From Schlesneria sp. (GTDB lineage: Bacteria > Planctomycetota > Planctomycetia > Planctomycetales > Planctomycetaceae), in NCBI GenBank assembly GCA_025353525.1, contig JANXOO010000281.1:1-14082 (forward strand): a DNA stretch of 14,082 nt, read 5' to 3'. The notes beneath the pieces are model-generated. The model worked only from the letters and a program-made list of their open reading frames with translations. It was not told the DNA's origin and made no database searches. Below are positions 1,718 to 8,309 of the stretch, piece after piece. A program made the translations under genes and the position numbers. Position 1 is the first letter of the stretch; every line of letters begins with the position of its first letter.

Positions 1718-2386
1718 ATGACCGTTTCGCAACCGTTGACAATAACACTTCCAATGATGCGAGCGTCGCTTTATTCCGCTGTCGTCAGTGATGCGCTGGA
1801 TGGATTGGGTTATAAGCGTCAGTCGCCACGATTACCCTTGCGGCCGTTCACAAGTTCCAGCCTTTTGGTGGGCCGCTGCAAAACGACGCTATGGGTCGAT
1901 ATGGCGCATATGGACACACGTCCGTACGAACTGGAATTAAAGGCTGTCGACGAGTGCCAGCCCGATGATGTCCTGATTGCTGCCGCCGGTGGTTCGGTCC
2001 GATCAGGGATCTGGGGTGAATTGCTGACAACGGCGGCACTTAACGGAGGCTGTGTCGGTGCGATTATTGACGGCGCGATTCGGGATGTCGGCAAAATTCG
2101 TGCGATGAATTTTCCCGTATTCGCTCGGAGTACCTGCGTCTACGACAGCCTTAACCGACAGCGTGTTGTCGATATCGATATTCCGATCGAACTCGACGGC
2201 GTCGCATTTCATCCGGGCGATCTCGTATTCGCTGACGAAGACGGTGTCGTTGTTGTGCCGCAAGTGGTTGAGAACGAAGTGGTCCGGCGAGCATGGGACA
2301 AAGTGAACGCCGAAAACGTCGTGCGAGATGCAATCCGTAACGGGCTTAAATCGACCGAAGCCTTTAAAAAGTATGGCATACTTTGA
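1718..2386 (+). CDS. RraA / HMG-CHA aldolase family protein
   Basis: A 222-residue cytoplasmic protein of the RraA-like fold (also annotated 'dimethylmenaquinone methyltransferase' in older databases, a name now regarded as wrong). Family landmarks are SDALDGLGY (24-32), the segment WGELLTTAALNGGCVGAI (99-116), the Arg-Asp pair in DGAIRDVGK (118-126), and the C-terminal GDLVFADEDGVVVVP (167-181). E101 lies exactly 20 residues before R122-D123. As I recall, that matches the (D/E)-X20-R-D metal/substrate motif of pyruvate-forming class II aldolases and oxaloacetate decarboxylases of this fold. E199 may be the residue contributed across the subunit interface. Enzymatic activity is therefore more likely than RNase E inhibition. 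ATG 1718 is chosen because GGGGA (1704-1708) lies nine bases upstream; the open frame before it is not protein-like. It sits between a membrane protein and a secreted beta-helix protein, and neither names its substrate. Confidence 0.9.
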   Translation: MTVSQPLTITLPMMRASLYSAVVSDALDGLGYKRQSPRLPLRPFTSSSLLVGRCKTTLWVDMAHMDTRPYELELKAVDECQPDDVLIAAAGGSVRSGIWGELLTTAALNGGCVGAIIDGAIRDVGKIRAMNFPVFARSTCVYDSLNRQRVVDIDIPIELDGVAFHPGDLVFADEDGVVVVPQVVENEVVRRAWDKVNAENVVRDAIRNGLKSTEAFKKYGIL

Positions 2387-2484
2387 CCCGGACAGATCAC
2401 CTCCCGGAACAATGCATTAAACCGGCTGATTCGCGATTCCCGTTTCTCACATCGTTCTTCTTCAACAAAACCGAGTACAAACCC

Positions 2485-3318
2485 ATGATCATTGGTCGCT
2501 GTTTTCTGATCGTGTCGCTGCTGGCAGTCAGCCCGATAACGGCAAGTGAGATTTTTGTGGACAATATCATCGGTCGCGACGCCGACGACGGATCGACGAC
2601 TCATTCGAGCGACGGACGAGCAGGGCCGGTCTATTCAATCCAACGAGCTCTTCAACTGGCGGGATTCGGCGATGTCATCGTACTGGCCAAAACCGGCAGG
2701 CCGTATTACGAATCGCTGTCGCTGACAGGTGATCGTCACAGCGGAAACCGATTCAGGCCTTTCATGATTCAGGGGAACGGAGCCACGATCAGCGGGTTAA
2801 GATCCCTGCCTCACGGAAGCTGGCAAAAAGCCGGATCCAAACTTTGGAAAGTGACGCTCACGCGAAAGGGTCACTACCGGCTGCTGCGTAACGGTCGTTC
2901 GCTGCCCGAATTCAAAGCGGAAGGGGGCGAAGACCCCTTGTCGAAATTGTCGCCCGGTGAGTGGACCGCCTGGCGCGGCAGCCTCTATTTCCTTCAGGAT
3001 GGCGTTGATCCGCCAGAGAGCCAGGCGTTCGCATATTCGGCCGAGCAGACCGGAATTTCGTTACATCACGTCAGCAACGTGCTGATTTCGGATGTGACAT
3101 TGCAACATTTTCGTTTTGACGGAATCCACGCACAGGGACTTTGCGACGGAATTATTCTCGACAACGTCAATTCGTTCGAAAACGGGCGTGCGGGAATCGT
3201 TTCGAGCGGTGCATCGAGAATTGAATTATTCGGCGGCAAGATTGCAGGGAACAGTCATCATCAACTACTCGTCCTGGACCATTCGACAGCCATCCCGGAC
3301 GGATGCGAGATCGAGTGA
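2485..3318 (+). CDS. Secreted right-handed parallel beta-helix protein
   Basis: A 277-residue exported protein. Residues 1-20 form a signal peptide (basic start, hydrophobic core, likely cleavage at ITA-SEIF). The mature start resembles planctomycete beta-helix proteins: IFVDN followed by an Asp/Gly-rich turn (RDADDGS), then SIQRALQLAGFGDVIVL (51-67), which is the usual 'series of hits after an entry strand' pattern. Later segments such as NVLISDVTLQHFRFDGIHA (198-216), CDGIILDNVNSFENG (220-234) and SRIELFGGKIAGNS (244-257) look like successive helix coils of the pectate-lyase-like type. Such proteins often bind or cut polysaccharides, but I see no identifiable catalytic set. The protein is short for the class and ends while coils are still being formed, so it may be C-terminally shortened. 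ATG 2485 is chosen for the signal peptide; a TTG at 2383 would add an unlikely 34-residue leader. It lies 98 bases after the RraA family gene. Confidence 0.8.
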   Translation: MIIGRCFLIVSLLAVSPITASEIFVDNIIGRDADDGSTTHSSDGRAGPVYSIQRALQLAGFGDVIVLAKTGRPYYESLSLTGDRHSGNRFRPFMIQGNGATISGLRSLPHGSWQKAGSKLWKVTLTRKGHYRLLRNGRSLPEFKAEGGEDPLSKLSPGEWTAWRGSLYFLQDGVDPPESQAFAYSAEQTGISLHHVSNVLISDVTLQHFRFDGIHAQGLCDGIILDNVNSFENGRAGIVSSGASRIELFGGKIAGNSHHQLLVLDHSTAIPDGCEIE

Positions 3319-3381: not shown

Positions 3382-4455
3382 TCACTCGACGGTCTTCTTC
3401 GGTACGGCGATTGTCACAGTCATCAGTTGATCGTCGCGACGAACGACCAGTTTCAGTTGATCGCCGCTTTCGAGCCGACCCAGTTCTTCTTTAAGCATTT
3501 GACACGATTGAACCAGATCGTCGCGCACAAACAAAATCAGATCATTGGGTTGCAAGCCAGCGGCTTCGGCCAGTGAACCGGGCAGAACCCGATCGATGTA
3601 CGCAGGTGTCCTGGCGACGACATCAGGAATTGTGATGATCCCGAAATCAGCAGCGTCGTACCGGCGTGGCCTGGTGCGAATTGAATTTTCGTTGCCATCG
3701 TCATCGCGTTTCGTGGAACTGAATCGACCGGAAATGATCTGCCCGACAGTCTCCTGAAGTTCACTGATCGGCATCACGTAATTGAGCCAGGTATTCGTTT
3801 GGGCGTTCCGTAATTCCTTACCGATCATGCCGATAAGTCGACCGTCCCAGGTCGTCAACACTCCGCCTGCCGCACCGGCGTTGTTGGTCACAGCGTCGAT
3901 CACGTAAACGGGGCCCGCATAAGGTGCGTCGAAGGCGCCCCGACGGGCGGCCAGAGTTGTTTTGGCGGCGATGACGCCGTGAATGACTGACACGGGTTCG
4001 TCGCCGGTAGCGACTTTGAAAGCGTTGCTGAAGCCGAGCACCCGTGTCCCCGGCCCGGCGCTCGTTGCCATCCCCATGTCAAAAAAAGGAAGCCCCTCGG
4101 CTTCGATTTTGAGGACAGCCAGATCAAGCGGCGGTTCGGCTCCGATGACTTTTCCCTCAAACCGGCGTCCGTCGTGCAACACGACCGAAACCGTGTCGCT
4201 ATCAAGGATATGACTCCAGACAGTCACAATGTGACCTTGAGGCGATACCAGGAACCCCGAACCATATGCATACAGATTCTTTGATCCTCCCGCTCCGAAA
4301 ATCTTCACGACTTTGGGGGCAACCGTTGCAATTGTTTGCGATGTCGATTGCGCACTGCAGAGATTCGCCGTTGCGGCGATGGCGAAAAAGACGATTGCCA
4401 GGCCAGGTCGTTTTCGTGAAAACATAGACGCGATCCGTATGAAGGAAGTGCTCAT
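3382..4455 (-). CDS. Exported HtrA-like trypsin-fold/PDZ protein lacking the catalytic serine
   Basis: A 357-residue protein: signal peptide, trypsin-like domain (about 40-240), PDZ domain (about 268-352). In the protease domain the order of HtrA landmarks is kept: GSGFLVSPQGHIVT (65-78), a histidine at 82 in a region with one extra residue compared with the usual TNNHV, and PLDLAVLKI (109-117) with D111. At the nucleophile site the usual N-P-G-N-S-G-G-P-L reads N-A-G-A-A-G-G-V-L (192-200), so position 196 is alanine. By that reading the protein cannot act as a classical serine protease and is probably a pseudoprotease: a binding, scaffold or regulatory subunit. The PDZ part (LPGSLAEAAGLQPNDLI, 291-307) is intact. 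An alternative start at 4425 gives a cleaner signal peptide (MFSRKRPG then a hydrophobic core, cleavage near CSA-QS). It lies 33 bases downstream of the active paralogue, almost surely in one operon. Confidence 0.9.
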   Translation of the reverse strand: MSTSFIRIASMFSRKRPGLAIVFFAIAATANLCSAQSTSQTIATVAPKVVKIFGAGGSKNLYAYGSGFLVSPQGHIVTVWSHILDSDTVSVVLHDGRRFEGKVIGAEPPLDLAVLKIEAEGLPFFDMGMATSAGPGTRVLGFSNAFKVATGDEPVSVIHGVIAAKTTLAARRGAFDAPYAGPVYVIDAVTNNAGAAGGVLTTWDGRLIGMIGKELRNAQTNTWLNYVMPISELQETVGQIISGRFSSTKRDDDGNENSIRTRPRRYDAADFGIITIPDVVARTPAYIDRVLPGSLAEAAGLQPNDLILFVRDDLVQSCQMLKEELGRLESGDQLKLVVRRDDQLMTVTIAVPKKTVE

Positions 4456-4488
4456 TTCAAAGGTGATCTTCGCTATTCAGTATTTCAG

Positions 4489-6255
4489 TCATTGGGAGGA
4501 TGGTGAAACTTGCGTTGAGTTCTCTGACGCTGAGACATCGATTGTCAGCAGATCGAACGTACCATAGTCGGTGTCACCGTACCGCACAGAAAACCGGTTT
4601 GGAAAATGCCGTCCCTGGAATTCGGTATATTGCAGGAACCTGACCTCGGACGCATCGACATCTGTTCCAAGTGACGAATCAAATCCTACGAGCAATCCGT
4701 CATTCGTTCTGAAATACCAGTGACACTCGATTGTCGAATTCTTCGTGACCAGAACATCAACCGTCGGTCCCCGTCCGTCGAGCGGGTGACTGCCGTCGTA
4801 ATAGGTCTCGTTAAAGGCCGTTGCCCCTTCGGTGAGCAGCAACTTGAACTGGTAGAGGGCTGCCAGCAAGCCTCCCGATCCTGGCGGTTCGTCGACGAAA
4901 TCGGTCCCATCGAGTTTCTGAAGACCGGGGGCGCGTTTGGTGAACTGCGAGGTCAATGCCTGCGGCAACAATTTGATTTGAAAGCTGTCTCCGTCGACCG
5001 TTCTTCCACCCAGCGTCCATTTTCCCGCGATTCCCTGCCATGCTGAAAATGGCAGCAATCCTTTCAGAACCCGTTCCTGTTCCTGTTGATTGAAATAGTA
5101 ATTGGCATACCCGGCCTTCTTCACGAGCAGCTTTTTGTATTCGTCGGGAAGTTTTTCTTCAGGCAACTCCGCCCCTGTTGCCGGCTGTTTTTCAGGTGAC
5201 CTGGGCCCGCGACCGTTCGGCCGAGGGGGCTGAGGCCCTTTGGGACCGGAGGGGAGGGCGAGTTCCGTCTTACGATGCAGCGGAGGCAATTCAACAAAAA
5301 TCTGGTGTTTCTGACCCTCGCGGCGGTATACGAGCGGTAACGACCACCCTTTGGGATAGATCCCAAGGATGTTTTTGAACTGGTTCACGCTGCCGATCGG
5401 TCGACCGGCGAACGAAATGATCTCGTCGTCATCGCGTAACCCGCGTCGAAACGCATCCGACGATTCCAGAATGGAATCGACGAGCACCGTTCTGTCGGCG
5501 CCGGTACGCACGGTTGCGCCCAGTGTTGCATGGTCGACAATGTGTCCTCCACGAAGCTGATCCATAAAATGACGGATCTGGTTGATCGAAATGGCATACC
5601 CTGCACCAACGTTGACTCGCCCCCGTTTCTCAACAGCAATTCGACCATTGATCCCGATCAATTCGCCTTTGGCATTGAACAACGGCCCTCCGGAATTTCC
5701 CGGATTGATCGAAGTATCGACCTGAATGCAATCGGTATATTCCAGGAATGTTCCCGACGGGTACTGATAGCGATGCGCACCGCTCACCATTCCAAATGTC
5801 ACAGTCGGCTGGAAGTCGGTTGCCAGCAGAAACGGATTACCCATTGCGTACGTCCAGTCACCGGCCATCACGGCGTCGCTGTCACCCAGGGGTGCGAAGG
5901 GGAAATCGGTTCTTCCAAGCATTTTGATCAGCGCGACATCGCCGGTCGGATCGATTCCCACGATGACGGCATCGTAAAGAACCCCGTCATTCAACCCGCA
6001 TTTCATGAAATCGCCGCAGGCGCTGGTAACGTGGAAATTCGACAGAGCGTAACCGTCGGGGCTGATCAGGACTCCCGAGCCACCTCCATTGCCATCTTGA
6101 GAAAAGATCGCAACGACGGCCGGAGCCGCCTGTCGGACGACTTCCGTCCGAACCTGCTGAGCCCGAAGTACTTCGGGTTCGGCGGCGACTGAAACGCCAC
6201 TCGACATCATACTGAACGCGACAATCAGGACCGGCAAGCCAGCGGAACACTTCAT
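4489..6255 (-). CDS. Exported HtrA/DegP-like serine protease with PDZ and an extra C-terminal domain
   Basis: A 588-residue protein. Residues 1-25 are a signal peptide (cleavage near VAA-EPE). The trypsin-like domain (about 35-235) has all three catalytic residues: H75 in SNFHV, D106 in TGDVALIK and S188 in INPGNSGGPLF. A PDZ domain follows (about 243-322; FRRGLRDDDEIISF, GRPIGS). A Pro/Gly-rich linker (about 333-362) leads to a C-terminal region (about 366-575) that usual HtrA proteins lack. Its WTLGGRT start, the long extended strands and the late LQYTEFQGRHFPNRFSV segment resemble a LolA-like lipoprotein-sorting beta-sheet, but this is weak inference. The start at 6255 is supported by GGAAAG (6262-6267) six bases upstream. 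The protein should work in the periplasm on misfolded or specific protein substrates. It is first in the operon with the pseudoprotease and is divergent from the response regulator. Confidence 0.93.
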   Translation of the reverse strand: MKCSAGLPVLIVAFSMMSSGVSVAAEPEVLRAQQVRTEVVRQAAPAVVAIFSQDGNGGGSGVLISPDGYALSNFHVTSACGDFMKCGLNDGVLYDAVIVGIDPTGDVALIKMLGRTDFPFAPLGDSDAVMAGDWTYAMGNPFLLATDFQPTVTFGMVSGAHRYQYPSGTFLEYTDCIQVDTSINPGNSGGPLFNAKGELIGINGRIAVEKRGRVNVGAGYAISINQIRHFMDQLRGGHIVDHATLGATVRTGADRTVLVDSILESSDAFRRGLRDDDEIISFAGRPIGSVNQFKNILGIYPKGWSLPLVYRREGQKHQIFVELPPLHRKTELALPSGPKGPQPPRPNGRGPRSPEKQPATGAELPEEKLPDEYKKLLVKKAGYANYYFNQQEQERVLKGLLPFSAWQGIAGKWTLGGRTVDGDSFQIKLLPQALTSQFTKRAPGLQKLDGTDFVDEPPGSGGLLAALYQFKLLLTEGATAFNETYYDGSHPLDGRGPTVDVLVTKNSTIECHWYFRTNDGLLVGFDSSLGTDVDASEVRFLQYTEFQGRHFPNRFSVRYGDTDYGTFDLLTIDVSASENSTQVSPSSQ

Positions 6256-6711: not shown

Positions 6712-6917
6712 TGCCATACCCTCGAATTGAATTGTCTCCCAGCGTCCCCTGGACCTTGCGTTTCTTACGATCCGCAGATCCGGCACCATCGGACTGAATT
6801 GCACGTCGGCCTCGACTTCCTGGACGGAATCGGGTCACCGATGACTGCAATGTCGCGCCGACGGCCATTGATTTTGTGTTTCCGCTGGTTCGAGACTCTC
6901 TTTGTAAAGCACAGGCT

Positions 6918-8309
6918 ATGACTCAAGGTTCCCTTCTCGTCGTCGACGACGATCGCCCGCTTCTGGAATCGATTGCCGACTACCTTCGTGGACTCGGACA
7001 TCGCACCGAGACCGCCAACAATTGTCAGGAAGCAATCGAACGGATGAAAGAATTTCCGTTTGATGCGGTGATCTGTGACGTGAATCTTCCCGATCAGGAC
7101 GGATTTCAACTGCTCGAATGGGCCACTCAGACCGTGCCCGATACGCAAGTGATTCTGTTGACCGGATTCGGGACAATTGAAAGCGCCGTCGACGCCATTC
7201 GACTGGGAGCTTTCGACTACCTCACCAAGCCGATCATCGAAGATGAACTGAATTTCTCGATCAACCGGGCACTCGGTCAAAAGCAGATTGTCAGCGAAAA
7301 CAGACAACTCAAGCAACAGCTCAACCAGCGATTCGGGCTAAGCAATATCGTCGGACACGACTACCGCATGCAGAAAATGTATGACCTGATCGAAAGCGTA
7401 TCAGACACGCGAACGACAGTTCTTGTCCTGGGTGAGTCGGGGACGGGCAAGACGCTGACCGCCAGGGCGATTCACCAGATGAGTAACCGCCGCGATAAAC
7501 CGTTCGTGGAAGTGGCGTGCGGAGCGTTGCCTGACTCGTTGCTGGAAAGCGAACTGTTCGGACACGTGGCCGGTGCGTTTACGGGTGCCAACCACGACAA
7601 GATGGGAAAATTTCTGCAGGCGAACGGCGGCACAATTTTCCTTGACGAAATCGGAACGGCATCGCCCAGCTTGCAAGTCAAACTGTTACGCGTGTTGCAA
7701 GACCGCGAATTCGAACCTGTCGGCGGTACAAAGACTCACAAGGTCGACATCCGCATGATCCTTGCGACCAATCTGGATCTTGAAGAAGCGGTGCGAAAGG
7801 GCGAATTCCGCCAGGATTTGTACTACCGCATCAATGTCGTCACGTTGACTCAGCCGCCACTGCGCGAACGAATCAGCGATATCCCGCTGCTCGCCGAACA
7901 CTATCTCGCGGACTTCGTCAAACAGACGGGCAAGCAGGTTACCGGATTCAGTCGCGAAGCGGTTGAGCAACTGCAGCGATATCGCTGGCCAGGTAACGTT
8001 CGTGAACTGGTCAATGTGGTTGAACGAGCCGTTGTGCTGACGAAGAATACGGTGATTCAGCCAAGCGATTTTCCGGAAACGTTGCGTCGGGACGACTCGT
8101 TTGCCGAACTCGGCGGACGCCTGGGTGCGATCGGCAACAACCTGAAATCGGCGTTGGCAACTCCGGAAAAACAAATGATTCTGGATGCACTTGAGTCGCA
8201 CGGCTGGAATCGCCAGGAGACTGCAGATTCTCTTGGAATCAACCGCACAACGCTCTACAAGAAAATGAAGAAGTACGGAATCAGCTTTGAAAAACAGTTG
8301 ATGTCGTAA
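6918..8309 (+). CDS. NtrC-type sigma-54-dependent response regulator
   Basis: A 463-residue three-domain transcription activator. The receiver domain (about 4-120) has acidic D10-D12, the phospho-acceptor D54 in ICDVNLP, T82 and K104 (TKP). The AAA+ domain (about 142-375) has Walker A GESGTGKT (172-179), the sigma-54 contact loop GAFTGA (219-224), Walker B TIFLDEI (239-245), and RWPGNVREL (356-364). The C-terminal Fis-type helix-turn-helix covers about 418-455 ([19 protein letters not shown]). All key residues are intact, so it should bind upstream DNA, be switched on by phosphorylation and open sigma-54 promoters. ATG 6918 starts the receiver domain correctly; a ribosome binding site is weak. 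No partner histidine kinase is in the window. It is divergent from the HtrA-like operon, which makes that operon a possible but unproven target. A strong terminator follows. Confidence 0.95.

Follow-up and report, generated by a model that had tools for sequence, protein, structure and literature searches.

An HtrA-type protease and two paralogues lacking the catalytic triad, probable partners in one complex of the Planctomycetota

The stretch of DNA analysed here (the window; 14,082 nucleotides, contig JANXOO010000281.1 of Schlesneria sp., phylum Planctomycetota) carries the gene of an HtrA-type protease, A, followed by that of a related protein, B, in which the catalytic serine is replaced; in many relatives a third gene with trypsin and PDZ domains, C, comes after B on the same strand, and the usual order is A-B-C. 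We propose, with fair confidence, that B and C act as partners of A without being catalytic themselves, most likely as subunits of one hetero-oligomer. Comparison of the sequences indicates that B and C have lost the triad, that the three proteins come from an old triplication, and that they have been kept adjacent, retained together and joined in single chains; physical contact of A with B and C, and control of A by them, would be the consequence. A sequence-only reading of this DNA had described the unit as a pair, and it proved to comprise three genes, the additional one being more degenerate.

Both genes of the window are on the minus strand, at the positions given by that reading and confirmed by an ORF check: A at 6255..4489 (588 residues) and B at 4455..3382 (357 residues), 33 nt downstream of A across the spacer at 4456-4488. 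The product of A includes a signal peptide, assigned by reading, a trypsin-like domain (residues 59-202, 5650-6081; Pfam PF13365, 3.2e-29), a PDZ domain (residues 245-323, 5287-5523) whose PDZ_2 match of 20 bits is below the Pfam cut-off of 27, and an extra C-terminal domain (residues 386-575, 4531-5100). The latter shows high pLDDT in the predicted model; Pfam and NCBIfam gave zero matches in it, and in the structure comparison the HtrA part took up all the matches. The alignment of 47 A sequences bears out the triad His75 (6031-6033), Asp106 (5938-5940) and Ser188 (5692-5694). B has a signal peptide, also assigned by reading, a trypsin-like domain (residues 65-210, 3826-4263; Pfam) and a PDZ domain (residues 285-351, 3403-3603; PF13180, 5.5e-07). 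As had been noticed, it keeps a histidine and an aspartate (His82, 4210-4212, and Asp111, 4123-4125, by alignment), and its nucleophile motif, NNAGAAGG, places Ala196 where the catalytic serine is expected; the codon, GCA, is at 3868-3870 and not at 3866-3868 as previously given. Trypsin_2 and PDZ were matched in both proteins, and the predicted single-chain structures of both match HtrA structures. A and B thus share the order of a trypsin-like domain followed by PDZ that defines HtrA (S1C) proteins, and of the two A has the triad and B, because of Ala196, lacks it. A is presumably exported and active. The two genes are flanked by genes on the opposite strand, at 6876-8309 and 2383-3318, which encode a sigma-54 response regulator and a beta-helix protein; in the window A and B therefore look like a two-gene unit.

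The pairing of an active with a dead protein, regarded as fixed by the sequence-only reading, holds among the relatives. Residues were counted over distinct sequences, identical ones being taken once, and the two chains that contain both A and B (L199 and L204) were included in both sets. In the smaller alignment (47 A and 50 B) all 47 A sequences carry His, Asp and Ser; in the larger set 111 of 112 A do, and the remaining one ends before the site, which gives 111/111 for those that have it. The B set comprises 246 sequences, with 120 records that are the best 120 of the 2484 matches of the B search. Serine occupies the nucleophile position in 0/245 B that have the site (one sequence is cut off), where the residue is Ala (176), Gly (46), Gln (9), Tyr (4), Pro (4), Glu (2), Phe (2), Asp (1) or Leu (1), and none of the 243 distinct B with letters at all three sites has an intact triad. 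The serine was retained at that site in 17/17 outgroup HtrA-type proteins of these genomes, which were chosen by HMM score and in which the Ser motif alone was read.

In this set, which is rich in near relatives, B keeps His in 206/244 and Asp in 193/244 of the sequences with a letter, so a role of the His-Asp pair is possible in near relatives. These residues are what could favour the idea that B has remained an enzyme and works by an unusual mechanism; however, the variety of residues at the Ser position speaks against it, as does the fact that outside the class His is retained in only 2/19 and Asp in 0/19 readable B, and we consider it very improbable. Even less credible is decay of the B gene or an error of assembly. 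The genome is a draft of 1559 contigs and GCA is one base away from a Ser codon; nevertheless, Ala is present at the nucleophile position in all 14 congeneric loci, which makes a sequencing error unlikely, and orthologues of B were found in 49 other genomes. The median dN/dS of B is 0.098 (16 of 91 congeneric pairs, with dS<2), similar to 0.101 for A (23 of 91 pairs usable) and 0.115 for C (6 usable pairs). These ratios indicate that purifying selection acts on B as it does on A, and with the conserved Ala they led us to reject decay.

C is the most degenerate of the three. At the Ser position, 104 of 105 distinct sequences carry Tyr and the other, a fragment, carries Trp, and the His position is Asn in 86 of the 105; in a search with one C query, Tyr was present in 120/120 of the best matches (the query counted) out of 5947. 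The annotation 'serine protease Do' is attached to some relatives of B and C despite the lost triad. In the genome of the window C is on another contig (G000:C167:2421-4466; L173:2259-4469), unlinked from A and B, and has a trypsin-like domain and two PDZ stretches; its C-terminal end gives weak matches of hydrolase type. Within this genus C is mostly away from A-B, and one congener, G009, has A-B-C together. The C-terminal region of C gives weak esterase-type Pfam matches (an example of this end is L073:5048-7075); a motif search located it in 50 of the 105 sequences and not in the other 55, and the presumed esterase nucleophile is Ser in 7 of those 50, in an alignment that is uncertain there. 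With this region, the C chain may include a second dead enzyme.

The sequence-only reading would have been undermined by B being absent next to A in all relatives, and B adjoins A in most of those examined. Of 49 loci of relatives, 46 have A immediately upstream of B, two lack it there and one is cut off on that side; for 80 named loci the corresponding numbers are 66, nine and five. C follows B downstream in 29 of the 49 loci, with 16 lacking it there and four cut off, and in 51 of the 80, with 22 lacking it there and seven cut off; the two sets have genomes in common, and related genomes in these counts are not independent samples. Seventeen of 20 loci outside the class read A, B, C; another (L193) has B and C with the place of A cut off, and the remaining two have A and B as a single chain followed by C. 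The trio is mostly retained where its genes are unlinked: for the nine of the 80 loci in which B has no adjoining A, A was found elsewhere in eight of the genomes and was not found elsewhere in the other, G305; for the 22 loci without C, 13 genomes were searched and C was present elsewhere in all 13, and the other nine are congeners for which a separate search found C. One genome assembled in a single contig (G162) has the three genes far apart. Among 59 genomes (that of the window and relatives), with presence calls that rest on thresholds set by us, 49 have all three genes, nine have none, and the sole exception, G048 (L058/L221), has only a long-branch B with Phe at the Ser position and neither A nor C nearby. 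Three profile searches of 246 genomes of the phylum identified 40 with all three genes, one (G245) with A and C, in which the contig ends beside A, on the side where B is expected, and 205 without this type, some of which have the second operon type described below. The scores in these searches split into two groups and cut-offs were placed at the gaps: at least 262 bits for B (next 175), at least 348 for C (next 269), and at least 440 for A, plus matches of 374 and 358 on the contig of B, other matches to A being at most 377.

In some genomes A and B form a single chain, as in L199 and L204. When the fused chain of L199 was used as query, 52 A-then-B chains were present among the best 120 of 1720 matches (query counted), a number that is no rate since the query itself is fused; 46 are A-B, three A-A-B, two A-B-C with a weak C part, and one A-B-B. 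With the protein of L204, which looks the same as P0125, the fused set amounts to 53 sequences. The A part carries His, Asp and Ser in all 53, and the B part has an intact triad in none of them. A Ser appears in two fused B parts, P0182, where it is aligned, and P0181, where it was read from the same stretch, and both have Leu and Gln at the His and Asp sites; one other fused B part has Thr at the Ser position. An intact-triad enzyme elsewhere in the B family, which would have counted against the sequence-only reading, was thus rejected for separate and fused B alike. False fusions could arise by a frameshift across overlapping genes, an artefact that is unlikely because the linkers of the 53 sequences are devoid of a signal-peptide-like stretch (maximum hydrophobicity 1.61); the N-termini of separate B have a median hydrophobicity of 2.1, and 190 of 233 reach at least 1.8. 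On one quick tree of B, with the 53 fused sequences and 29 selected separate ones, in which gains and losses are not distinguished, the fewest changes between the two states are 10, six of them forced by the starred branches; fusion of B to A has occurred more than once. Names in the match lists include Phycisphaerae and Pirellulales, and among the named rows, which are the minority, of the best 120 matches in each of two lists there is no name outside Planctomycetota.

In relatives the trio is the end of a longer operon. Upstream of A, four more gene families are found repeatedly in the same orientation, in 66, 52, 44 and 32 of 110 loci (the window included), counts that are lower bounds as the stretches differ in length. 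The family nearest to A is an NPCBM protein (two examples), the second is weakly TPR-like (E 0.025), and the other two gave zero Pfam matches; L241 and L244, two loci from separate classes, have a VWA-type protein ahead of these families (one of the matches is just below the cut-off), so that the order is VWA-type, two long proteins, weakly TPR-like, NPCBM, A, B and C. None of the four families adjoins A in the window, and a relative of the NPCBM gene, 30% identical, is at G000:C1216:6654-7841 in the same genome. A clear pathway is not apparent from the neighbouring genes in the loci of relatives. This longer operon and the extra, weakly esterase-like region of C would fit an explanation in which B and C are repurposed scaffolds or ligand binders of the same envelope pathway that neither bind nor control A, and there is a precedent in PflC, described in the available part of its report as an HtrA-fold protein without the triad that forms a motor disk (PMC12222027). 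The fusions of A with B and the co-occurrence are also compatible with one pathway without contact; nonetheless, the single chains together with the retention of all three genes when unlinked point to A, and we regard this explanation as unlikely, though it is the one we take most seriously after partnership with A.

The trio seems to be old. In a tree built from 113 domains, each of the three proteins A, B and C makes up a single clade with support 100/99, another HtrA group joins A (98/96), and by eye the order within the three subtrees is similar; we read this as the trio predating the split of the sampled classes, transfer aside. A second, related operon type, which again combines one active and two dead members, was found in other families of the phylum at 15 loci from 14 genomes (L246-L260); these were chosen by A-like and C-like matches side by side, and their number is therefore no rate. 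One genome, G122, has both types (L194 and L259). A' carries His, Asp and Ser in 15/15 loci; these residues are complete in 0/11 separate B' and 0/15 C' readings, and four C' retain Ser but carry Asn at the His site. Three separate genes are present in 11 of the 15 loci, ten in the order B'-C'-A' and one (L246) A'-B'-C'; B' and C' are one protein in L255 and L257, and the stretches of L249 and L259 show C' and A' alone. In a quick tree (SH-aLRT only) A' goes with A (89), C' with C (95) and B' with B (88).

That B and C work with A is the simplest account of proteins that are kept by selection, inherited with A, retained when unlinked and fused repeatedly, and these patterns suggest that they probably act with A in one complex. 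The hetero-oligomer put forward by the sequence-only reading has in this way gained indirect support from adjacency, co-retention and A-B fusions; in it B might recognise substrate or regulate assembly, as that reading suggested. A would be the secreted HtrA-type protease that does the cutting; B and C, old paralogues that lost their catalytic residues, would have been kept as its partners and could use their protease-like clefts and PDZ domains to shape A, to gate it or to feed it. Trimers are the building unit of HtrA proteins, which, together with one active and two dead members, points tentatively to a heterotrimer. A stronger version, an obligate A:B:C heterotrimer with one active site of three, derived from an ancestral homotrimer that diverged into three genes before the sampled classes split and preserved in two operon types that include A-B and B'-C' fusions, is possible and we advance it tentatively. 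By analogy B and C might instead be inhibitors or substrates of A, which would block it until a signal removes them. The Csp trio, in which one protease is active, two are dead and CspBA is a fusion, lends itself to this comparison, given that CspA and CspC are hypothesised, in the available part of that report, to hold CspB off (PMC6464247); the present data contain no direct evidence against such a role, which we nevertheless judge improbable.

Pseudoenzymes are common, but what they do is seldom easy to examine. In this case a protease has been kept with two dead copies across classes of a phylum, and natural fusions fix a pairing. If the three form one complex, an HtrA ring could be rebuilt from unequal subunits, as has happened in the proteasome and in ClpP/ClpR, and the trio would offer a clean setting in which to study the role of a dead subunit.

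Among known systems, DegP, DegQ, DegS and other HtrA (S1C) proteins are active and form homo-oligomers, whereas B and C lack the triad. MamE and MamO are encoded in one operon, and in that system the pseudoprotease is needed for proteolysis by its partner. The sequence-only reading knew of no bacterial HtrA operon of this kind, but a bacterial HtrA with a pseudoprotease partner had already been described in MamE and MamO of magnetosomes, MamO having Thr at the place of Ser, according to the part of the report available (PMC4794232). MamE/MamO is a pair and the planctomycete system a trio; moreover, A scores 116.4 bits against the NCBIfam MamE model and B 42.6 against that of MamO, the cut-off being 800 for both, and the TauE domain considered in the comparison with MamO is absent from the Pfam matches of B. 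Csp proteases are subtilisin-type, and the Pfam search listed no subtilase match for A or B, which are trypsin-like instead. In architecture alone, A, B and C resemble the Csp trio of Clostridioides difficile, with one active protease, two pseudoproteases and an active-dead single chain, CspBA, in the available account (PMC6464247); Csp serves spore germination, and no sequence relation to A, B or C was seen. PflC of Campylobacter jejuni likewise has an HtrA fold, lost the triad and became structural in the flagellar motor, but the portion of its report available does not mention an active/dead operon partner (PMC12222027). Among the papers listed by searches of open-licence PubMed Central for planctomycete or HtrA pseudoproteases, none describes the trio in its title or abstract opening; a count of PDZ proteins in planctomycetes (PMC6411480) and a survey of 91 genomes, with 42 inactive homologues of serine proteases (PMC2605481), do not mention it in the parts available. 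Precedents for a protease-like protein kept without its triad exist in MamE/MamO, the Csp trio and PflC, and what appears to be new is an ancient trio of HtrA proteins.
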